64,000 nucleotides of DNA from Myxococcales bacterium (GTDB lineage: Bacteria; Myxococcota_A; Polyangia; Polyangiales; Polyangiaceae). The translations under genes and the position numbers were made by a program. Positions 7,201 through 41,979 of the stretch are shown piece after piece. The stretch covers positions 62,001-126,000 of the forward strand of contig CAHJWM010000002.1 in NCBI GenBank assembly GCA_903642325.1. The letters run 5' to 3'. How positions within the stretch are numbered: the first letter of the stretch is position 1; the number at the start of each line of letters is the position of its first letter. Below the pieces are notes generated by a model. That model worked only from the letters and a program-made list of their open reading frames with translations. It ran no database searches and was not told the DNA's origin.

Positions 7201-7581
7201 GTGGTCGCTGGATGTGTGATTGATGACGAGCTCGGTGATCACGCGCATGCCTCGGGCGTGCGCCGCGTCTAGAAACCGCTTGAAGTCGTCGAGCGTGCCG
7301 TAGTTGGCGTGGATGCCGAAGTAATCGGCAATGTCGTAGCCGCCGTCACGGAGTGGCGACGGATAGAAAGGCAATAGCCAGAGCGCGGTGACGCCTAGGT
7401 CGGCCAAGTAATCGAGCTTTTCCACGAGCCCTGCGAAATCCCCGATGCCGTCGCCGTTCGAGTCGGCGTACGCGCGCACGTGGAGTTCGTAGATCAGCGC
7501 GTCCTTGTACCACTCGGGGTCGTCACTCAGCGTGGGGTAGGATCGCAAACGCTTCGCTTTACGCTCGATTGACGCGGACAT
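4237..7581 (-). CDS. treS: Trehalose synthase / maltokinase fusion
   Basis: This 1114-residue protein joins a TreS domain (about residues 15-560), which interconverts maltose and trehalose, to a C-terminal maltokinase domain (about 600-1105), which makes maltose 1-phosphate. In TreS the GH13 residues are visible: Asp220 in [13 protein letters not shown], Glu262 in [10 protein letters not shown] and Asp328 in [12 protein letters not shown]. The kinase part keeps the aminoglycoside-phosphotransferase-like catalytic and metal motifs [11 protein letters not shown] and VIIDFEGEP. In other bacteria maltose 1-phosphate feeds GlgE for alpha-glucan synthesis; no glgE or glgB is seen in this window. 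The gene converges on treY with a 45-base gap, so trehalose made by TreYZ could be rerouted here. Confidence 0.95.
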
Positions 7582-7801
7582 GGTGCTCGCTCGGGGGATA
7601 AGGTGAGAACGGGGTATCGATTAGAATAGTGCGCGGTGGTCGCCAGGTGGCAACGCAGCTCACGCTAGCGGCGGACCTAGTCCGCACGCTAGACGAGAAT
7701 GTAGCAACCCCAAAGGGCTCAGCGCGGCGCTCGACCGGGGCCGACCAATGGCGCTCGGTGCAACCAAACGGGACGGCTGAGCGGGGTGCCTCATGTACGC
7801 G

Positions 7802-8188
7802 CTAAGCGGGGCGACTGCGTAGCTCGGTCAGGCGGCTAGTCAAGGACGCTACCCCGGGCAACGCGCGAGCTCGAGCCTCGAGATCCGATTTGTCGGACGC
7901 ACTGGGGACCGTTCCGTAGAGCGTCACCTGGCCGCCGTCTACCTCTACTCGCAAGTCAGTCACGTCGATGTGGCCCTGGGCTAAAGCCTTCTGCACTGCC
8001 TCTCCCAGCTGCTTATCGCTCGCGCTCGCGGGAAGATCCTGCGCGGCGTCGGGTTCGCTCCCCTTCGCGACCTGGTGGCTGTAGTCTTCACCAAACCCCC
8101 CAACCGCGTTGTCGTCATAGCCGAATACGCCATGCTCGCGCGTCGCGGGCTCCAGCGGCGCGCCGGCCTCGGGCTTATCACCAGACAT
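7802..8188 (-). CDS. BON-domain protein
   Basis: A 128-residue protein without an evident signal peptide. The C-terminal half, about residues 57-125, has the BON pattern: an initial helix (AVQKALAQGHIDVTDLRVEV), a strand with VTLYGTVPSASDKSDLEARA, then PGVASLTSRL. BON domains bind phospholipid or other ligands and occur in osmotic-stress proteins such as OsmY; the N-terminal half is a polar linker of unknown role. Its ATG directly follows the stop codon of the small upstream gene, so the two are probably translated together. The exact role cannot be read from sequence. Confidence 0.8.
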   Translation of the reverse strand: MSGDKPEAGAPLEPATREHGVFGYDDNAVGGFGEDYSHQVAKGSEPDAAQDLPASASDKQLGEAVQKALAQGHIDVTDLRVEVDGGQVTLYGTVPSASDKSDLEARARALPGVASLTSRLTELRSRPA

Positions 8189-8443
8189 TTAATGACCCGC
8201 CGTGCGGAACGCATCACTCAGCAATTTCGCATCAACGCTGGGCTCTGGCTGGCGCGAATCCGAGTGGTCGGTGTCCACTGCCTCGAGCTCGACGCGACTC
8301 GAAACTTCTGAGCAAGCTCCCGCAACAAGAGCGACCGCGGCTTCCCGCGTGCGGCGGGAGGACACGGGTGCTGGCATCGGCAAGGTATCGCGATCGCTGT
8401 CGTCTTGCGCCGCATCGCGCGGGGCGGCCGAATTTTCCGACAC
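8189..8443 (-). CDS. Small hypothetical protein upstream of BON gene
   Basis: An 84-residue polar protein I do not recognise. The start is a GTG at 8443 preceded by a good ribosome-binding site, AGGAG at 8451-8455, seven bases away. The stop codon TAA is immediately followed by the ATG of the BON gene. The sequence is acidic and proline-rich with a short alanine/valine stretch (EAAVALVAGACSE) too short for a confident membrane helix. The coupling and ribosome-binding site support a real gene; the low-complexity composition keeps confidence moderate. Confidence 0.5.
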   Translation of the reverse strand: MSENSAAPRDAAQDDSDRDTLPMPAPVSSRRTREAAVALVAGACSEVSSRVELEAVDTDHSDSRQPEPSVDAKLLSDAFRTAGH

Positions 8444-28860: not shown

Positions 28861-29286
28861 TCAGCTGCCCTGGACCGACCCATGGTCGTCGCAGTGGCCG
28901 GTGTGCAGATGGCCAGCGACGATGTAATCGATATGGTCTGCGTGGGGCACGGCTTCGTGGCCGCAGCTCGAGCCATGAACGTGGGATTTCGGATGCGCTC
29001 CACAATCGTGGGACGGCGTGCACGCGGCGGGATTTTTGGCGCTCTCTTCGAGCACGCACTCGTCGACGTGTCCGTCATGGGCATGATGCAGATGGCCATC
29101 GTGCACGTAATCGGTAACATACGAAGCAGAACCAACGCCGGTACGATGCCCAGGACCGCGCCGTCCAAAGCCGCCAGGGTCACGTTCGTGCCGCGCGTCC
29201 ACAACACGAGTGCGGGCCGACGAAGAGACCCAACACTGACAGGACGACGGCTAAAACGAACACCGAGCGGCACGCCTCACGCTCAT
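28861..29286 (-). pseudogene. His-rich membrane protein gene broken by apparent 1-base deletions
   Basis: An uninterrupted frame (28861 to about 29202) encodes a very His-rich tail: DYVHDGHLHHAHDGHVDE, SHVHGSSCGHEAVPHADHID and AGHLHTGHCDDHG. No good start precedes it. Reading upstream, an ATG at 29286 overlaps the stop of the preceding gene (ATGA) and gives MSVRRAAR. Shifting frame near 29265, 29215 and 29121 then gives two membrane helices (SVFVLAVVLSVLGLFVG; AALDGAVLGIVPALVLLR) leading into YVTDYVHDG. Each shift is explained by one missing base. I infer an original membrane protein with a metal-binding His tail, similar in style to small Zur-regulated His-rich proteins. If the breaks are sequencing errors the gene is intact. 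Confidence 0.5.
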
Positions 29287-29569
29287 ACCCCGGGCTGCCC
29301 GTCAGCAAGCCGCTCGATTGCGGCCCTCAGCTCTTCATCCGTTACGTCGCGTGCAGCGCGGTGGATCTTTATCTGCCGCGGGGCCGGCCCGCTCGCAGCA
29401 GTGCCACGACGGTTTCGGTGGGCGGACATCCCGGTTCGCTGCATTGCAGCTCGTTAACGGGCACGGCGTCCTGCTCATTCGCGTTGAACAGCCGCGCCGC
29501 ACTGGCCTTGAGGCGCACTAGCGCCGCGTTACGGGCGGCGTCCCGGGGCGGGCGGAATCCGAGGGTCAA
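29283..29569 (-). pseudogene. Small protein gene with one frameshift, between WD40 and His-rich genes
   Basis: From a TTG at 29569, overlapping the WD40 stop (TTGA) and preceded by GGGAG, the frame reads RNAALVRLKASAARLFNANE then VNELQCSEPGCPPTETVVAL and hits a stop at 29369. One base earlier the other frame continues with IKIHRAARDVTDEELRAAIE to a stop at 29283. Together they match a family of about 90 residues (xELxCxEPGCPPxETVxA ... KIHKPxxEVT) that I recall beside COG0523 GTPases. The break is near 29377-29383 in CCCCGCGG and needs one added base. Function unknown; the Cys pair suggests metal or iron-sulfur binding, which is inference. Confidence 0.55.
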
Positions 29570-30606
29570 CTCGGCTCCCAATAGGCGACCGCACCGCTTG
29601 CATCACCGCCCATGAGGCGCCGATTTTCTGGGTGCCAGGTGAGGCAGGTCAACGCGGCCGGCATGAACGCATAACGGATCGGCCGAGACGAACGCCGCGG
29701 ATCCCAAAGCAACACCGACGTATCCTGGGCGCCGCTCGCGAGTATCCCTTTCTTTGCGTCGAAGGCCAGGCGGGTGCACACGCCTTGGTGACCCTCGAGC
29801 TCGATGGGCCGCGTTCCCTCCGGGCCTTTGCCACGGAAGTCCCAAACCGTGACTGTCGGCCCACCACCGGTAGCGAGCAGCCGAGATTCTCGATCCCACG
29901 CCAACGCCTTGGGCTTCACGGGATAACCGCTCATTTCCGAGTCTTTGCCGCTTGCGAGTCGCCAAAAATGAACTGAGCCATCCTGACTGCCGCAGGCGAT
30001 CACCTTGCCGTCGGGGCTCCAGGCAAGAGAGATGAGCGAGCCCTTCCAAGCGAGGTGACGCGCTTTCGCGTTGGGGACGAATGGCCACACGTGGACTCCG
30101 CCGTAGCAGGCGACCGCGAACGCGCTGCCGTCAGCGCGAAACGCGAGGGCCGTCACCGTGCTGCTCAGGGTCTCCGTCTCGAGCAGAGGCTCGCCTTCCG
30201 AATTCCATAGCCGCACCGCACGTCCGGCTGCGGTCGCGATCCGCTCACCAAGCGGCGCCCAGGCGACCTGCTCGACCCAGCCGGCACCCCCGCCAGGTAG
30301 CTCGCGCAGCATATCCCCCCGACTGTTCCAGAGCCGGGCGCTCGAGTCCTGTCCACACGTCACGAAGCGCGTGCCCTGCGGTGAGATGCTGATGCCGAGG
30401 ACACTCCCCTGATGAGCACGCACTCTGAACCGCTCGTGGCCCGTCGCCTCGTCGACTCCGATTACCGAGCCGTCGCCCGTGCCGATCACACACAGCTGAT
30501 CCTCGGCCGAAATTTCCGCGGCACACACGTAGTCACCGGCGTCGAGCCGCCACTTGCACTGGAGCTCGACCTCGGCGAGAGCCGGATCCGTCGTCAGACC
30601 CGGCAT
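29566..30606 (-). CDS. WD40-repeat beta-propeller protein, paralogue 1
   Basis: A 346-residue cytoplasmic protein built from about seven WD40 repeats, for example [39 protein letters not shown] and [20 protein letters not shown]. No enzyme domain is present, so it should be a binding scaffold. The ATG at 30606 lies inside the last codons of cobW (13-base overlap), indicating translational coupling; an upstream in-frame start at 30690 is inside cobW and is not preferred. WD40 genes next to COG0523 GTPases recur in zinc-responsive loci; the propeller may assist metal loading or GTPase control, which is inference. A second copy lies at 40684-41679. Confidence 0.9.
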
Positions 30607-31934
30607 TGTTCGAACGCTTTGGTGAGACTCTGCCGATCCAGGTTCTTGCCAATGAACACCAAATCGCTGGCGCGCGGACCCTCTCCCCACGGCTTGTCTT
30701 CGCTGCTGTCGAACAGCATGTGCACGCCTTGAAAGACGAAGCGATTGGGAGAGCCCTGGACGTTCAGAATGCCTTTCATTCTAAAGATGTCCGTGCCTTT
30801 TTCGCGGAGCAGCGCCGACACCCAGCGATTCAAGCGCTCGGGATCGATCTCGCCTTCGAGGTGGATACCGACGGAGGTCACCTCTTGGTCGTGAGTGTGG
30901 CCTGCGGCGAACTCCCGCTCGGCAACGGGCGCGCGCAGAACTACGCCACGTAGAACGCGCAGTCGAAATTCCGCAGGCAGGTGCTCCGTATAGAGCGCCA
31001 AGCGCCCGGTACGCGGCACGCGGATCTGAAAGCGCTTCGTGCCCGGGCCGCTAGATGGCAAAGCCGTTGGCTCGTTGGCGTCGACTGCGATTTCGCCGCC
31101 CAGTGAGACCGTGAGTGGCGGGTTGGCCCAGACGCGCATGGCGTGCTCAGCGGCCGCCTTATCCGAGGCGGCGCCTCCGGCCGGCAAATGAGCGGCGAAC
31201 ACGCGCATGCTCGGGTCCGGGCCCGCTTCCAGTACTAGCTCGTAGCTGCCCTCCTCCACTTCATAGGTACCTGCCCATTCGAACGGATATTCCGGTTCGA
31301 GAAAGGTGGGCTTGGTCTCGAGTGCGCGTTCTAGATCGAAGCCGCCCACGTCGAGCACGGCGGCGATGGGCACGTTCGCGTTCTGCGCGTCCAGTACCTT
31401 CGCCATGGCATTCATGCGAGTGACGCGCGCCCGTAGCGCGCCTAGCTCGTCAGCGCTCACGAGATCGGTCTTGTTCAAGATCAGGACATCCGCAAAAGCA
31501 ATTTGTTCCTTGCACTCGCTAGAATCCTCGATGTGCAGCTGCACATGCTTTGCGTCGACCAAGGTAACGATGCCGTCCAGCGAGAAAAGATCGCGCATTT
31601 CGTGATCGACGAAGAACGTTTGCGCCACCGGGCTCGGGTCGGCCATACCCGTGGTCTCGACCAAGATGTGGTCGAACTTGTCCCGGCGCTTCATGAGGTT
31701 GCCCAAGATTCGAATCAGATCGCCGCGCACGGTGCAGCAGATGCAGCCATTGTTCATCTCGAAGACTTCTTCATCGGCATTGATAACGAGCGCCTGATCG
31801 ATGCCTATCTCCCCGAACTCGTTTTCGATGACGGCGATTCGCTTGCCATGGGATTCGCTCAAAATGCGGTTCAACAGCGTCGTCTTCCCCGAACCTAGAA
31901 AGCCCGTCAGCACTGTAACTGGTATCTTCTTCAT
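30594..31934 (-). CDS. CobW/COG0523-family metal GTPase
   Basis: A 446-residue P-loop GTPase of the COG0523 metallochaperone family. It shows Walker [12 protein letters not shown] at 11-21, [10 protein letters not shown], the metal-binding GCICC at 63-67, the DxxG-type [11 protein letters not shown] and NKTDL. Between the GTPase domain and the C-terminal CobW_C region ([19 protein letters not shown] through [10 protein letters not shown]) lies an extra about 120-residue beta-rich insert ([20 protein letters not shown]). The ATG at 31934 is preferred over 31991, whose frame would run across the operator. Upstream lie one island palindrome (31976-31990) and one DmeR-type palindrome (32033-32048). 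Zinc delivery under starvation is the most likely role; cobalt or nickel cannot be excluded. Confidence 0.93.
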
Positions 31935-31975
31935 CGCTCGACCGCCTTGGTTGTTCGCCTGGGGAATACTCAATG

Positions 31976-31990
31976 TGCAACCAGGTTGCA
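31976..31990. promoter_or_regulatory. Island palindrome site B, upstream of cobW
   Basis: TGCAACCAGGTTGCA is a perfect palindrome around a central base, 42 bases before the cobW ATG. It is one of the best copies of the island consensus and is the expected binding site for the local Fur/Zur-family regulator. Confidence 0.7.
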
Positions 31991-32032
31991 ACCTAGATCA
32001 CGCGGTCAGCGCGGCGGCACGCCACGATTACG

Positions 32033-32048
32033 ATACCCCGGCGGGTAT
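32033..32048. promoter_or_regulatory. Second DmeR/RcnR-type palindrome, upstream of cobW
   Basis: ATACCCCGGCGGGTAT has half-sites ATACCCC and CGGGTAT, differing by one base from a perfect copy of the operator before dmeR. RcnR/CsoR-class regulators bind such C/G-tract palindromes flanked by A/T. It lies in the 247-base gap between dmeF and cobW, about 100 bases before the cobW ATG. Confidence 0.6.
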
Positions 32049-32181
32049 GCGACCGCGTTCCGTTCGAGATCGCCCGAGCAGCTCGACGCTGTAGCTGCTC
32101 GTTGACCGTTCGTGTCGCGGAAGTCGGGCTTACAGCGCGCCTCGATCGGCTAATGGCCAGTGAAAAAGCGTGATGCACGGG

Positions 32182-33327
<1,146 letters not shown>

Positions 33328-33335
33328 GTCGCGAC

Positions 33336-33608
33336 TCAGCCGATGAACTGCCGAATAGTGAGCACCAGCTCCGTCGCCGCCTCAACGCGGGCGCCTTTGG
33401 CGAGGCGCGGAGCCGCGACGTGCTCCGTAACATGGTCGCAGAGCACCTCTGCGGCGAGTGCGTTGATGGCGCCTCGTGCCGCGGAGATCGCTCTAATCAC
33501 CTCTTCACAGCCTCTCTCTTCCACCAGCGCTCGTTCCACGGCTTCTACTTGACCGCGTACGCGCCGCACGCGAGCTATCAGACGTTTTTTGTTGCGCACA
33601 GTGTGCAT
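33336..33608 (-). CDS. dmeR: RcnR/DmeR-family metal-sensing repressor
   Basis: A 90-residue all-helical regulator of the CsoR/RcnR family (DUF156): KKRLIARVRRVRGQVEAVER at the start. Candidate metal ligands are His2, Cys34, His59 and His63, the same pattern and spacing as the nickel/cobalt set His3-Cys35-His60-His64 of RcnR; Cu-type CsoR ligands are absent. It is the first gene before dmeF, eight bases apart. A perfect ATACCCC-N2-GGGGTAT palindrome starts 10 bases upstream of the start, so it should repress its own operon and release DNA when Ni or Co is high. Confidence 0.9.
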   Translation of the reverse strand: MHTVRNKKRLIARVRRVRGQVEAVERALVEERGCEEVIRAISAARGAINALAAEVLCDHVTEHVAAPRLAKGARVEAATELVLTIRQFIG

Positions 33609-33618
33609 GCGTCAATGC

Positions 33619-33634
33619 ATACCCCGGGGGGTAT
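33619..33634. promoter_or_regulatory. DmeR-type operator before dmeR-dmeF
   Basis: ATACCCCGGGGGGTAT is a perfect inverted repeat of seven-base arms with a two-base centre. It matches the TACCCC/GGGGTA type bound by RcnR/InrS/CsoR-class proteins and lies directly upstream of the dmeR start. Confidence 0.75.
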
Positions 33635-33819
33635 TTCACGTCTAGGGCCTCGGGGGGACGGGCCGGGTCGGGTCAGCGGCGCTCTGATCGAGCTTCGCTC
33701 GGGTCAGGCACCGAACTGTCTGCCTGCCGCACCGTTGCACGCGGACGAGCTCAAAGTCAGTTACCGAACAAGAACTCATGCGATCCTGCCGCTTGGTGGC
33801 CCCTTTTTTGTCACATAGC

Positions 33820-33834
33820 TGCAACGCGGTTGCA
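33820..33834. promoter_or_regulatory. Island palindrome site C, upstream of TonB-receptor operon
   Basis: TGCAACGCGGTTGCA has perfect six-base arms with a three-base centre. It ends 14 bases before the receptor ATG at 33849, so a bound repressor would cover the transcription start or leader. Confidence 0.7.
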
Positions 33835-33848
33835 CGTCGAGGGGTGGC

Positions 33849-36476
33849 ATGATACTCGCGCACCCTCACATGTTCGCGCAACGCGCAGCTTCAGTTCCTC
33901 GTCAGTCCTCTCGCGTGCCTCTCGCTTTTCATGCAACTTCTCGTCCCACTGGAGTGTTGCTTTGTATCGCGTGTGCGACGGCTGTGGTGTGCGCACCTGG
34001 CACTGCCCTCGCTCAAACGACGGAGCCGCCGCTCGTGACCCAGCGCGTGGAGGCGGTCACACCTCCGGAAGCGAGCGGCCTGAGGCGGCCCGTGCAGGTC
34101 ATGTTGTCGATCGTCGTTGATCAGGACGGTCAAGTCACCACTCCAATCGTCATTAGCAGCGCGGGGCCCTCCTTCGACGAGGCGGCTTTGGCGGCTGTGA
34201 AAAAATGGCAATTTAGCGCAGCTAAACGGGAGGGGCAGCCGGTGAGCAGCCGCATCCGGGTCGCCTTCGAATTCTCGGCGCCAGCCGCGCCAGTCCTAGC
34301 GACGGGCTCGGCCACGCCAGTCGATCCACCCACCGCGCTCCCTTTGGGAAAACCAGAATCAGCGACCAGCGGTGCGCCGAATACGCCATCGCCGACCGAG
34401 GTCACCGTTCAAGGCGCGACGGCGCAGCGCAGTCACGGAGCCTCCGACTTTCAGATCACCGTGGGCGCGTTGCGCTTGATTCCGCGCCAGAACGCGACAG
34501 ATTTCCTGAAGCTGGCCCCCGGCATCCTGCTCACCAACGAAGGGGGGGACGGGCACGCCGAGCAAGTGTTCCTCCGCGGCTTCGACGCACGCGAGGGCCA
34601 GGACGTCGAATTCAGCGTCGACGGCATACCGATCAATGACAGTGGAAACACGCACGGCAACGGTTACGCAGATACCCACTTCATCATTCCAGAGTTGATT
34701 CAGGGACTGAGGGTCACCGAAGGCCCGTTCTCGCCTTACCAGGGCAACTACGCCGTCGCCGGCAGCGCAGATTACCACCTAGGCCTCGAAGCCCGCGGCG
34801 TGACCGGCAAGGTGACCTACGGCTCTTGGCAGACTCAGCGCTTGGTTCTGACCTGGGGCCCGCCGAGCGAATCCCAGCAGACCTTCGGCGCGGTCGAAGC
34901 GTACCGAACAGACGGCTTTGGTCCGCACCGCTCTTCGCGCCGCACCTCCGCCATGGGGCAATACGAAATCCCGCTCCCTTCTGGGGCAACGTTGCGCATC
35001 GGGGGGCAAGCGTACGCGACGCATTACGAAAGTGCCGGGGTGATTCGAGAGGACGACTGGCGAGCGGGTCGCGTTGGTTTCTTTGGTACGGAGGATCCGC
35101 TGCAAGGAGGCGATTCGTCGCGCTTCTCGCTGTATGCAAATTACGATAAATCCGGCGCGCACTCCGGTTTCTCCCAGGGCGTCTACTTGGTTAGGCGAGC
35201 AACGCGCAATCGCGAGGACTTTACCGGCTTTCTGCTGGATACCCAGGACGTCCTCGACACGCTTCACGGCCAACGCGGTGACCTCATCGACACGAGCTTT
35301 GGCGCGTGGACGCTCGGTGGCCGCGGGCTCGGCCGCGTGTCCACCGTCATGGGTGGCCTCGAGCAATCGATTGACGTCGGTTATCAGGCGCGCGTCGATT
35401 TGACCCATGGCACGCAGTACCGCGACACCGTCCCGGGGAACATCCCTTACCGGCTGGAGAGCGATCTCGACTCCACTCTGACGGACGTTGGGCTTTTCGC
35501 AGACGCCAATCTGCGCCCGCTTTCGTGGCTCGCGTTTCGCGGCGGCGTTCGGGTGGATAGCTTTTCCTTCGATGTGCTGAACAATTGCGCGTCTCAGGGC
35601 GACTTCGACAACCCATCCCGAATGCGGCCGCCTACCAATGAGTCGTGTCACGACCAGCTTCCGAACGGCGCGCACCGCGAACCGATTCAGCGATCGTCGA
35701 CTGGAGCGATCAAGGTAATGCCCCGCGTCACCGCGCTCGTGGGGCCGTTCCAACACTTCAATTTGTCATTCAGTTTCGGGGAGGGTGTGCGTTCCATCGA
35801 TCCCTCGTACATATCGCAAGACCTCGATACCCCATTCGCCAGCGTCCGGGCTTATGAGGGTGGGGTGCAGTATGCGCATTCGCTCGGCCCGGTCGAGCTC
35901 TCCGCGCGCTCGATTTTCTTCGTGACCAAAGTAGATCGCGATCTCGTTTTCAGTCAGACGGCGGGTCGAAACGTCTTGGCCAACGGTACGACGCGCGTCG
36001 GCTGGGCCGGCGCGGCACGGGCGGCGGGCTCGTTCTTCGACGAATCCGCAAACCTCACCTTAGTCAAGCCGACGTTCGACGACACGGGGCTTGCCATTCC
36101 GTACGTTCCGTCACTCGTTTTTCGCGACGACGCCGCGCTATTCCGTGACTTGCCGTGGACCATCGGCGAGTCCCCGCTCAAGGCCTCTCTAGCCGTTGGC
36201 TGGACATTCGTCGGAAAGCGCGCGCTCCCCTACAACGAAGTGAGTGAGGTAATATCGGTGATCGACGCAAATGCGGCGGTCGGCTGGCGCGGGCTCGAGC
36301 TGTCACTGGCCGTGACGAACCTCTTCGATACCCGCTATCGGTTGGGCGAATACAACTTTGCATCGGACTTCCACAGCGCGCCCGAGCCGACGCTGGTCGC
36401 CGCGCGAGCGTTCACTGCCGGCGCGCCACGCGGCGTCTTTCTGTCCCTGTCCGGGAACTTGGGAGGGCAATCATGA
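33849..36476 (+). CDS. TonB-dependent receptor with N-terminal TonB C-terminal domain
   Basis: An 875-residue exported protein. GAGGGG precedes the ATG at 33849; a signal region follows at about 33-56 (TGVLLCIACATAVVCAP ... ALAQ). Residues 80-143 form a TonB_C domain (VMLSIVVDQDGQVTTPIV, DEAALAAVKKWQFSAAKREG). Then come a plug (about 185-300: FLKLAPGILLTNEGGDGHAE, VFLRGFDAREGQDVEFSVDG) and a beta-barrel to the C-terminus. Receptors normally meet TonB as a separate protein; here the energy-transducer domain is fused to the receptor and has no membrane helix besides the signal. Operon with two lipoprotein genes, under palindrome site C. Import of zinc or another scarce metal, or its chelate, is inferred from the regulon. 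Confidence 0.9.
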   Translation: MILAHPHMFAQRAASVPRQSSRVPLAFHATSRPTGVLLCIACATAVVCAPGTALAQTTEPPLVTQRVEAVTPPEASGLRRPVQVMLSIVVDQDGQVTTPIVISSAGPSFDEAALAAVKKWQFSAAKREGQPVSSRIRVAFEFSAPAAPVLATGSATPVDPPTALPLGKPESATSGAPNTPSPTEVTVQGATAQRSHGASDFQITVGALRLIPRQNATDFLKLAPGILLTNEGGDGHAEQVFLRGFDAREGQDVEFSVDGIPINDSGNTHGNGYADTHFIIPELIQGLRVTEGPFSPYQGNYAVAGSADYHLGLEARGVTGKVTYGSWQTQRLVLTWGPPSESQQTFGAVEAYRTDGFGPHRSSRRTSAMGQYEIPLPSGATLRIGGQAYATHYESAGVIREDDWRAGRVGFFGTEDPLQGGDSSRFSLYANYDKSGAHSGFSQGVYLVRRATRNREDFTGFLLDTQDVLDTLHGQRGDLIDTSFGAWTLGGRGLGRVSTVMGGLEQSIDVGYQARVDLTHGTQYRDTVPGNIPYRLESDLDSTLTDVGLFADANLRPLSWLAFRGGVRVDSFSFDVLNNCASQGDFDNPSRMRPPTNESCHDQLPNGAHREPIQRSSTGAIKVMPRVTALVGPFQHFNLSFSFGEGVRSIDPSYISQDLDTPFASVRAYEGGVQYAHSLGPVELSARSIFFVTKVDRDLVFSQTAGRNVLANGTTRVGWAGAARAAGSFFDESANLTLVKPTFDDTGLAIPYVPSLVFRDDAALFRDLPWTIGESPLKASLAVGWTFVGKRALPYNEVSEVISVIDANAAVGWRGLELSLAVTNLFDTRYRLGEYNFASDFHSAPEPTLVAARAFTAGAPRGVFLSLSGNLGGQS

Positions 36477-38680: not shown

Positions 38681-38695
38681 CGCAACTCGGTTGCA
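38681..38695. promoter_or_regulatory. Island palindrome site D, upstream of DUF1826 gene
   Basis: CGCAACTCGGTTGCA matches the consensus with one outer-base change and lies 34 bases before the ATG at 38730. Its right arm overlaps a TTGCAT that could be a -35 element, with TAGTAT at 38712-38717 as a possible -10, an arrangement suited to repression. Confidence 0.65.
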
Positions 38696-38729: not shown

Positions 38730-39410
38730 ATGGAGCGAACGCAGCTATTATCATTGGCCGACACCGGGAAGCTGGCAGGGGTCGCCCGCGGCACGAGAGA
38801 GAGCGTCCTATCCGCAATTCGCGAACCGGACATCAGTCTGTCCGTGTGGGGTCGAACACTGCCGGCTAGTCTTGAGCGGCGAATCGCCGCGTGGGGCGCC
38901 GCCGCGCCGCCTGCTTTCGATGAGGTCTTGCCGGCCGAGGGTTACGATTGCGGCGGCCTAGCCACAGGCATGGAGCACAGTTTACGACGCTGGCTCCTGA
39001 ACGACGTCGGCAGGATCGTTAGGCACTTTTTGAGGGTGGTCGATGGGCCCAGATTCCGGCTGTTCTTCGGCGCCGTGTGCCACGACCAGTGCCGAAAGTT
39101 CCACGTCGACTATGTTCGCTTACGACTCGTCAGCACATACGCGGGCCCCGGGACAGAGTGGCTGCCCGATGCTGCTGTAAACCGCAGCGAGCTCGCTCAG
39201 CCCGGCCAGCTCGTTCCGGACGCAAACCGGCGCATCGTCAAGGACACGCGCGAGGTGCGGCGCGCGCGCCCGGGCGAGGTTTTGTTCATGAAAGGCGCGC
39301 TATTTGGAAACGGTCATGAACGAGGCGCAGTGCATCGCTCGCCGGAGATCGTGGGCACGGGCGTAAGCCGCGTGGTCCTCACCCTGACCGCGCTGGGAGG
39401 CGCCCCTTGA
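38730..39410 (+). CDS. DUF1826 family protein
   Basis: A 226-residue protein matching the DUF1826 pattern: CHDQCRKFHVDYVRLRLVST with AGPGTEWLPDAAVNR, and near the end PGEVLFMKG and RGAVHRSP. His125, Asp127 and His202 are spaced like the HxD...H metal triad of cupin/2-oxoglutarate-oxygenase folds, and Cys117/Cys121 sit just before it; this reading is inference. DUF1826 genes are known to travel with COG0523 GTPases in zinc-responsive loci. It has its own palindrome (site D) and converges on the Fur-family gene, six bases apart. Confidence 0.88.
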   Translation: MERTQLLSLADTGKLAGVARGTRESVLSAIREPDISLSVWGRTLPASLERRIAAWGAAAPPAFDEVLPAEGYDCGGLATGMEHSLRRWLLNDVGRIVRHFLRVVDGPRFRLFFGAVCHDQCRKFHVDYVRLRLVSTYAGPGTEWLPDAAVNRSELAQPGQLVPDANRRIVKDTREVRRARPGEVLFMKGALFGNGHERGAVHRSPEIVGTGVSRVVLTLTALGGAP

Positions 39411-39416
39411 AGAAAT

Positions 39417-39845
39417 TCAGGCGCTGACACACGCGGCGCAGCGCCCACGCAGCTGAACCTCCGCCACTTGGCTCTTGGCAGCTTCACCATGGAGCTTGAC
39501 GGTACTCGCGGGCAGGCAGCGTACGTTTCCGCACTCGGAACAGACCAGGTGCGGGTGATGCGAGTGGTCGGAGCTCAGCGTTCTCGGCAGTTCGAAGCGC
39601 CACACGTTATCGCCGAGCTGAGTGCGGACGACCACCCCCGCATCGGCCAGCGTCAACAGGTTCCGGTAGATCGTCGCTCTGTCCAAGGTGGTGCCCGACA
39701 TGCGCTCCGTGAGCTCAGGATGACTGATTGGAGAGCGAACCTTCATCATTTCGAGCAGCAATGCGACGCGCTGTTCCGTGATACGCAGGCCGCGCGACGC
39801 GAGGAGCTCACGCAAATCAGCGTCTCTGGGGTTCCCAGCCTTCAT
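39417..39845 (-). CDS. Fur/Zur-family metalloregulator
   Basis: A 142-residue ferric-uptake-regulator family protein. The winged helix includes GLRITEQRVALLLEMM and the recognition helix TLDRATIYRNLLTLADAGVV. The regulatory zinc/metal region is DHSHHPHLVCSECGNVRC with Cys102/Cys105, and the structural pair is Cys136/Cys139 (RCAAC). The ATG at 39845 removes an unlikely 40-residue extension. The neighbours (COG0523, DUF1826, WD40, His-rich proteins) argue for a zinc sensor (Zur); nickel (Nur) cannot be excluded because NicO-like and urease genes are near. It is divergent from the small secreted protein gene across palindrome site E and is the best candidate to bind all seven sites. Confidence 0.88.
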   Translation of the reverse strand: MKAGNPRDADLRELLASRGLRITEQRVALLLEMMKVRSPISHPELTERMSGTTLDRATIYRNLLTLADAGVVVRTQLGDNVWRFELPRTLSSDHSHHPHLVCSECGNVRCLPASTVKLHGEAAKSQVAEVQLRGRCAACVSA

Positions 39846-39960: not shown

Positions 39961-39975
39961 TGCAATCCCGTTGCA
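39961..39975. promoter_or_regulatory. Island palindrome site E, between regulator and secreted-protein genes
   Basis: TGCAATCCCGTTGCA lies in the divergent region, 31 bases before the ATG at 40007 and 115 bases before the regulator ATG at 39845. It could serve autoregulation and control of the plus-strand genes together. Confidence 0.65.
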
Positions 39976-40474: not shown

Positions 40475-40683
40475 ACTGCAGTCGAAATTAACTAGTATCG
40501 ACCTCAACGCGTGCCCTTGAAACTGGGTGCTGACGCAGCGTCGAGTCGGCAGTCAATTCACCATTAGGACGCAGCGCCATCCCGTGCCCCCCCGTCCGAG
40601 CGCCTCGTGCGCCAATGATCCAGATACCCGTGCGCTCAGCCATGATTGCAAATTGCTCTGATAACCATTTGTTAACGCGAGAT

Positions 40684-41679
40684 ATGCATTGGACGCCGGA
40701 CTGGACCGCACATCTTTCCAGCGACGTAACCGCAATGAGCATCGCGGGAAATGGGCTCGTCGCCGTAGGTACAGGCTCAGGGGCCGTCACCCTGCTCGAA
40801 GCCGGATCGGGCTCCATTCTACGCAGCACGTTGGCTCACGTCGGCGGCGTAATGTCACTCGAATGGTCTTCTGGCGGTCGTGCCCTCGCCAGCGCGGGAC
40901 ACGACGGACGGGCTTGTTTGTACGATGCGCGGGGGGCCGAGGTTGCGGTGCTATCACGACCAAGCGAAGCCATCGAGCACGTTGCCTGGTCGCCTGATGG
41001 TAGGTGGCTCGCGACTGCCTCCGGACAAGTCGCACGCATCTGGAGCGCATCCGGGGAGCTTGCCTGGACCACCGATGCGCACGAGGGCGCAATCACCGGG
41101 TTGGCGTGGAACCCGGTCGGCTCGGAGTTAGCCACCATCTGCTTTGGCGGCGTGCAGTTGTTCGGAATCGCTCCCGATCCGATTACTCGCAGACTGCCCT
41201 GGAGGGGATCCTTGATCTCCCTCGCTTGGAGCCCGACAGGATCCGTCCTGGCGTGCGGTACGCAGCAGCGCTCGGTCCGCTTTTGGCGAACTGCGAGTGG
41301 TCAAAATTCCGAGATGCTGGGCTTCAAGGCCAAGCCGCGTGCTCTGGCCTGGAGCTCGACCGGTGAGCTCTTGGCAACCGCCGGCGACAAGACCGTTACC
41401 GTCTGGGTCTTCGACGATGCAGGACCGGAAGGTCAATCGCCAATTCAACTCGTCGGTCATGACGCGCTGTGTACCGCACTTGCGTTTCATCCACATTCCG
41501 GCTGCCTGGCTTCGGGCGCCGACGATATGCGAGTCATCCTCTGGGATCCAAGCACTAGCACTGTAGCCATCGCCCACGAGCGCTTGAACGAGACGGTGAC
41601 TGCTTTAGGTTGGACGAGCGACGGCGCGCGGTTGGTCGCAGCCGACGCAGCGGGGACCGTGCGCTCGTGGGCCGCCTAA
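40684..41679 (+). CDS. WD40-repeat beta-propeller protein, paralogue 2
   Basis: A 331-residue WD40 protein closely related to the one at 29566-30606: both share the order [13 protein letters not shown](S/T)Q, (V/R)FWR.ASG, KPKALAW/KPRALAW, TVTVW and GPEG, and both lack other domains. Repeats include RALASAGHDGRACLYDARG and CLASGADDMRVILWDPSTS. The ATG at 40684 (MHWTPDWTAHLSSDV) is preferred over 40615. It follows the small secreted-protein gene by 209 bases and may share site E or use its own promoter. Confidence 0.88.
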   Translation: MHWTPDWTAHLSSDVTAMSIAGNGLVAVGTGSGAVTLLEAGSGSILRSTLAHVGGVMSLEWSSGGRALASAGHDGRACLYDARGAEVAVLSRPSEAIEHVAWSPDGRWLATASGQVARIWSASGELAWTTDAHEGAITGLAWNPVGSELATICFGGVQLFGIAPDPITRRLPWRGSLISLAWSPTGSVLACGTQQRSVRFWRTASGQNSEMLGFKAKPRALAWSSTGELLATAGDKTVTVWVFDDAGPEGQSPIQLVGHDALCTALAFHPHSGCLASGADDMRVILWDPSTSTVAIAHERLNETVTALGWTSDGARLVAADAAGTVRSWAA

Positions 41680-41699: not shown

Positions 41700-41714
41700 T
41701 GCAACGAAATTGCG
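41700..41714. promoter_or_regulatory. Island palindrome site F
   Basis: TGCAACGAAATTGCG fits the consensus with weaker right arm. It lies 21 bases after the WD40 paralogue 2 stop, with no gene directly downstream on either strand. Confidence 0.45.
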
Positions 41715-41964: not shown

Positions 41965-41979
41965 TGCAACTGGGTTGCA
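41965..41979. promoter_or_regulatory. Island palindrome site G
   Basis: TGCAACTGGGTTGCA has perfect six-base arms. It lies in the orphan region before urtE's 3' end, so its target is unknown. Confidence 0.6.

Follow-up and report, generated by a model that had tools for sequence, protein, structure and literature searches.

Fur-type and DmeR-type palindromes paired upstream of a cobW-WD40 operon suggest joint control by zinc scarcity and cobalt or nickel excess

Introduction

Can a single operon for a COG0523 GTPase and its WD40 partner be controlled both by a repressor that responds to the scarcity of one metal and by a repressor that responds to the excess of others? The question is of interest because the role of COG0523 subfamily 5 is debated between zinc delivery under scarcity and defence against wrong metals. 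The subfamily includes human homologues, its genes adjoin WD40 genes, and some of them are located behind Zur sites (PMC2770081). In the window (the whole stretch of DNA that was analysed, 64 kb), a cobW gene is preceded by two palindromes, one of the Fur/Zur type and one of the DmeR type. The initial annotation had taken them to mean that two metal regulators act on cobW and the WD40 gene behind it. If one promoter responds to both signals, a single reporter would suffice to test the debated role directly.

Results

Two palindromes upstream of cobW

The Fur/Zur-type box TGCAACCAGGTTGCA and the DmeR-type palindrome ATACCCCGGCGGGTAT are both present before cobW where they had been placed, 42 bp apart (Table 1). 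A chance origin of either palindrome was ruled out by shuffles and whole-genome counts. The proposed resemblance of the cobW-side DmeR-type site to the dmeR operator also holds, as these are the only two exact ATACCCSSSSGGGTAT sites (ATACCC-SSSS-GGGTAT) in the whole genome (5.83 Mb, 140 contigs). By chance, 0.00 such palindromes would be expected in the window, where both are located. Sites with one mismatch elsewhere in the genome are found within an oxidase reading frame in one case, and not preceding any gene in the other.

Table 1. Features of the window around cobW, dmeRF and the Fur-family gene
Feature	Position	Strand	Basis and remarks
WD40 protein gene	29566..30606	-	Domain search; overlaps the cobW end; follows cobW in nearly all relatives
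cobW, COG0523 GTPase, 446 aa	30594..31934	-	Pfam cobW and CobW_C; nearest solved structure YjiA
Inferred cobW core promoter	31963..31991	-	-35 TTGCAA 31991-31986 (in Fur box), 17 bp, -10 TATTCC 31968-31963
Fur/Zur-type box of the cobW promoter, TGCAACCAGGTTGCA	31976..31990	-	Exact copy, 1 of 3 in genome
DmeR-type palindrome before cobW, ATACCCCGGCGGGTAT	32033..32048	-	1 of only 2 exact sites in genome
dmeF, CDF Co/Ni efflux transporter	32182..33327	-	NCBIfam NF033827 DmeF, 349.8 bits, cut-off 250
dmeR, RcnR/CsoR-family repressor	33336..33608	-	Pfam PF02583; alignment; H2-C34-H59-H63 and extra C57
Inferred dmeR promoter	-35 33644-33639; -10 33621-33616	-	-35 TAGACG, -10 TATGCA
dmeR operator, near-perfect palindrome ATACCCCGGGGGGTAT	33619..33634	-	Exact ATACCCSSSSGGGTAT site; 10 bp before dmeR
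Fur-type box before TonB-dependent receptor gene (33849-36476)	33820..33834	+	Exact copy
Fur-type box before DUF1826 gene (38730-39410)	38681..38695	+	Motif search; 1 mismatch
Local Fur-family regulator	39417..39845	-	Pfam FUR; 1 of three Fur-family genes in genome
Fur-type box before the Fur-family gene	39961..39975	-	Motif search; 1 mismatch
Fur-type box, no clear gene downstream	41965..41979		Motif search; exact; strand not assigned

The cobW and WD40 genes, whose reading frames overlap, form one operon, and the pair is widespread among related loci. The G3E GTPase and CobW_C domains together with the adjacent WD40 gene place cobW in COG0523 subfamily 5 (an assignment by domains and neighbour), and its product is a putative zinc-delivery protein.

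Several other genes in the window touch on this module. Another WD40 gene (40615-41679, plus strand), paralogous to the partner of cobW, is near the Fur-family gene and has no cobW of its own. A short conserved protein (29369-29581, minus strand) with the motif EL[QR]C.EPGCPP.ETV[IV]A matched no Pfam family; it is encoded beside or a few kb from cobW-WD40 in several phyla (L042, L044, L046, L049, L078, L083, L089 and others), and may belong to the module as well. A His-rich protein (28861-29202, minus strand; HDGHLHH...DEC...CGHEAVPHxDHxDYLVxGHLH), likewise without a matching Pfam family, is also encoded near cobW-WD40 across phyla (L044, L047, L051, L053, L086, L093, L140). A function in metal binding or storage is possible.

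A DmeR with an additional cysteine

The HCHH fingerprint of DmeR is complete, with H2, C34, H59 and H63 invariant in the alignment. As is typical of the family, dmeF is adjacent, and the operator overlaps dmeR's own inferred -10, occupying both the spacer and the -10 of the inferred promoter. In the window, dmeRF is upstream of cobW and oriented like it, and the dmeR operator is about 1.6 kb from the cobW-side site. DmeR differs from other family members by an extra cysteine at residue 57 (around 33438-33440), which precedes the metal-binding His59 by two positions in the motif VLC[DE]H. This cysteine is found in all six cobW-linked DmeRs (window and five relatives) and is absent from that position in 34 others of the alignment. 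It may alter the metal preference of the cobW-linked proteins. The dmeF gene contains a very long repeat loop rich in His, Glu and Asp (around 32680-32890), where matches to relatives break.

A local set of Fur-type boxes and their likely regulator

The Fur-type box TGCAACNNNGTTGCA has three exact copies in the 5.83 Mb genome, all of them within the window, which also contains two boxes with one mismatch. Only the box before cobW had been noticed in the earlier reading; those at 33820, 38681, 39961 and 41965 had been overlooked. Five boxes with at most one mismatch in 64 kb compare with 0.23 expected, and none of 100 shuffles reached five. This excess marks the boxes as a predicted local regulon. 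The box-linked genes of the window encode a TonB receptor, a DUF1826 protein and the Fur-family protein itself, and in relatives the boxes are linked to further COG0523 paralogues, TonB receptors and an MbnH-like di-haem protein (names read from translations). A NicO-like gene is present in some box-led operons. Neither znuABC nor a ribosomal paralogue was found under a Fur-type box. The urease and urt (urea-transporter) promoters are not preceded by one, despite the urease cluster being a neighbour of the regulon. The exact box at 41965 has no convincing gene on either side. It is flanked by the ends of the second WD40 gene and of the urt operon, with a weak second copy nearby at 41700, and its target may be a small RNA or a short protein.

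The Fur-family protein, encoded nearby and with a box upstream of its own gene that suggests autoregulation, is the natural and likely reader of these boxes. Its top solved-structure match is 3mwm, which we take to be Streptomyces coelicolor Zur, and the third is 3eyy, presumably Nur. The protein is thus probably a Zur, yet with Zur as the best and Nur as the third match, sequence alone cannot fix the metal. TGCAAC-N3-GTTGCA is unlike the Zur boxes known to us, and the motif also resembles that of the nickel-sensing Nur. The gene content, with several COG0523 paralogues, DUF1826, TonB receptors and the COG0523-WD40 pair, makes zinc the most likely metal: COG0523, DUF1826 and outer-membrane receptors are found together in described Zur clusters (PMC2770081).

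Promoter anatomy

A consensus sigma-70 scan of 31900-33900 found no promoter, and the -35 and -10 of cobW were assigned instead by promoter comparison. In 17 promoters with or near boxes, hand-chosen and with letters shared between box and -35, TTGCA[AT] is followed by TA at a spacer of 17 bp in 11, and at other spacers from 10 to 25 in zero to two. The preference indicates that the box usually contains the -35, and is a strong hint that the Fur box supplies TTGCAA as the -35 of cobW. The cobW-side DmeR palindrome ends 41 bp above this -35. In neither direction is it accompanied by a good -35: ACGCGG, the hexamer found 17 bp before its TATCGT, is a poor match.

Conservation of the pairing

In five related genomes, dmeRF also adjoins cobW, with dmeR and cobW divergent in all five (G158 (L042), VGTK01000220 (L076), JALHOP010000001 (L077), G255 (L158) and G013 (L177), where the contig ends just within cobW). 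The named relatives among the homology matches belong to the Myxococcota. In the gap shared by the two genes, a single DmeR palindrome precedes dmeR by 9-10 bp, and a single Fur box is separated from the palindrome by 13-15 bp. The 42 bp of the window are about three times this spacing. The six cobW-linked DmeRs form a single clade (support 100/100, in all bootstrap trees). A Fur box is located 53-55 bp before dmeR in five of the six members, whereas the nearest intact box in the window is at 226 bp.

Loci outside the clade served as controls. No Fur box occurs within 250 bp before dmeR for any of 34 other DmeRs, and no DmeR palindrome (at most two mismatches, 300 bp upstream) at any of 95 cobW loci without a clade dmeR, a set in which the genus Prochlorococcus accounts for many. 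A search of 379 genomes of the phylum with a combined two-site pattern, whose spacing range did not span the wider gap of the window, matched only G158 and G255. A plasmid-borne member of the DmeR clade was not found, the best match being 58%. The conserved pairs and the absences in the controls therefore indicate that both sites travel with this clade of DmeR. Judged from these comparisons, and given the recurrence in five relatives, the pairing of both metal-regulator sites at cobW is real. Further afield, cobW-WD40 operons of marine Synechococcus that are orthologous to that of the window carry a cyanobacterial Zur-like box 60-75 bp upstream. In one other locus (L046, G065, 7414-8330), dmeF is divergent from cobW, no dmeR was found, and Fur-type half-sites lie between the genes, so that the exporter may be under a Fur-type regulator alone.

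No related genome with the tandem dmeRF-cobW order of the window was found, and neither gene order could be identified as the older one from trees of DmeR and CobW. Selection for the cobW-side site and a recent inversion are therefore inseparable. A duplication of a longer segment bearing the operator was considered and rejected, since the flanks of the two sites lack similarity (17 and 14 of 60 bases) and there is no inverted repeat around dmeRF. Next to the cobW-side palindrome, none of the six reading frames showed traces of a former dmeR start.

Discussion

The data can be explained by two repressors: Zur would occupy the cobW promoter, and a DmeR dedicated to this locus would bind just upstream. 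We give this explanation as a whole an even chance of being correct. The cobW-WD40 operon would be a member of the small local regulon of the Fur-family repressor, most likely Zur. With adequate zinc, the repressor would cover the box with the cobW -35; when zinc is scarce, it would leave, and cobW would be transcribed. Both zinc as the signal and the repression of cobW by the Fur-type regulator are inferred. DmeR, of a clade found only beside cobW of the cobW-WD40 type, would bind the palindrome just upstream and be released by cobalt or nickel. Bound there, it could act as a second brake, or as a block on read-through from dmeRF, that is lifted by Co/Ni. Together, the two repressors would let the cell make more of the COG0523 GTPase, the WD40 protein and DmeF whenever zinc sites are endangered by a shortage of zinc or a surplus of cobalt or nickel. 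Such control may protect zinc sites from mismetallation, as proposed from the outset. In the relatives, both promoters share one short region, with each box just above the -35 of the other promoter, so that either protein could affect both genes.

Direct control of cobW by DmeR, beyond that of dmeRF, is plausible and the least certain step. Of the original proposal that two regulators act on cobW-WD40, the presence of two metal-regulator sites and their conserved pairing with dmeRF in five relatives stand. The inference to control of cobW is weaker. In the relatives, the DmeR palindrome is positioned for dmeR, as its own operator inside its promoter in the shared divergent gap, and a DmeR palindrome beside cobW is therefore insufficient on its own to establish control of cobW. 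A separate cobW-side copy is kept only in the window, where it lacks a convincing -35 of its own. In favour of two repressors, a DmeR site has stayed with cobW in the window even though a separate operator precedes dmeR. We propose more tentatively that the dedicated clade with the extra cysteine is Zur's partner in a two-input switch. One short region would read both zinc scarcity and Co/Ni excess and drive the exporter together with the zinc-delivering COG0523-WD40 operon, and the re-supply of zinc proteins would coincide exactly with the threat from wrong metals.

The cobW-side palindrome could instead be a functionless relic of an ancestral shared operator, left by an inversion in this lineage, with cobW answering only to the Fur-type regulator. 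The divergent order and single DmeR site 9-10 bp before dmeR in the five relatives would fit such a history, as would the missing -35 and the spacing to the Fur box that has not been kept. We nevertheless consider it rather unlikely. There are two operators where the relatives have one, and their unlike flanks are not those of a simple recent duplication. Moreover, an unused near-perfect palindrome of 16 bp would be expected to decay, and the nearest cobW already differs by 24% in protein sequence. The coupling could also run in the reverse direction, with Zur beside the dmeR promoter activating or repressing dmeRF, and cobW merely a neighbour. The position of the Fur box, which starts 53-55 bp before dmeR in five relatives, is suggestive in this respect, and Zur is known to activate metal exporters in Streptomyces (PMC5472717), Caulobacter (PMC4176598) and, through czcR, Pseudomonas (PMC9827704). 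The distance of 226 bp in the window, the retention of both sites by cobW, and the cobW -35 within the box, which fits repression of cobW, make this explanation unlikely.

Two further alternatives, both of which we regard as improbable, concern the metals. The motif TGCAA-N5-TTGCA resembles that of Streptomyces Nur. If the Fur-type regulator were to sense nickel (Nur-like) or manganese (Mur-like), the pair of sites could oppose nickel scarcity to nickel excess, with urease as the client. This would agree with the motif, with the genes for urease and urea transport at 42-53 kb, with a weak NicO-family match in the operon, and with Nur 3eyy as the third-best solved match. It is at odds with the lack of a box at the urease or urea-transporter promoter, with the COG0523 paralogues, TonB receptors and MbnH-like di-haem protein behind boxes in relatives, with Zur 3mwm as the best solved match, and with the description of DUF1826 and COG0523-WD40 as zinc/Zur-linked (PMC2770081). 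On the side of DmeR, the extra cysteine in VLC[DE]H, invariant in the clade (6/6) and absent there in 34 others, could make it a sensor of zinc or another thiophilic metal rather than Co/Ni. In this family, a single-residue change, as in an FrmR variant, is known to affect the response to metals (PMC4528141). Against such a switch, the RcnR/DmeR fingerprint HCHH is complete (PMC7055735), the partner protein is recognised by score as an exporter of Co/Ni, and a cysteine at this position may not reach the metal. If its promoter does read both signals, the locus would offer a small natural model for logic with two metals, together with a DmeR clade whose metal site has changed.

Comparison with known systems

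The zinc-linked COG0523-WD40 pair is already known. Its conserved genomic, and probably cis-regulatory, coupling to DmeRF appears to be new, as we found no description of it in the open-access literature. The locus resembles the Zur-regulated COG0523 subfamily 5 systems of Haas et al. 2009 (PMC2770081) in the order of cobW and WD40 gene, in the Fur/Zur-type box, and in the nearby DUF1826 and TonB receptor genes. It differs in the DmeRF partner and the second metal site, which we did not find described there. With the dmeRF systems of Rhizobium, Agrobacterium and Sinorhizobium (PMC7055735, PMC6044271), it shares an HCHH repressor of the RcnR/CsoR family, a CDF exporter, and an inverted repeat between the -35 and -10 of dmeR, which extends over spacer and -10 as in Sinorhizobium (PMC6044271). 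Unlike in the rhizobial systems, the operator is a shorter, near-perfect ATACCC-N4-GGGTAT, DmeR has the extra cysteine, and the regulatory region is shared with a COG0523-WD40 operon. The proximity of a Zur box to a metal exporter promoter is reminiscent of the Zur-activated zitB (PMC5472717) and czrCBA/zntA (PMC4176598), but those are zinc exporters without a DmeR partner.

Combined control by zinc starvation and Ni/Co toxicity is less unusual than had been supposed at first. Zinc control of COG0523 proteins is common, and zinc and cobalt homeostasis are already linked in Cupriavidus metallidurans, where COG0523 proteins under Zur control and the cobalt exporter DmeF interact in a CobW2/CobW3-ZupT-DmeF network (PMC11340326). 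In C. metallidurans, the link is physiological, whereas in the window it is also genomic and, presumably, cis-regulatory.
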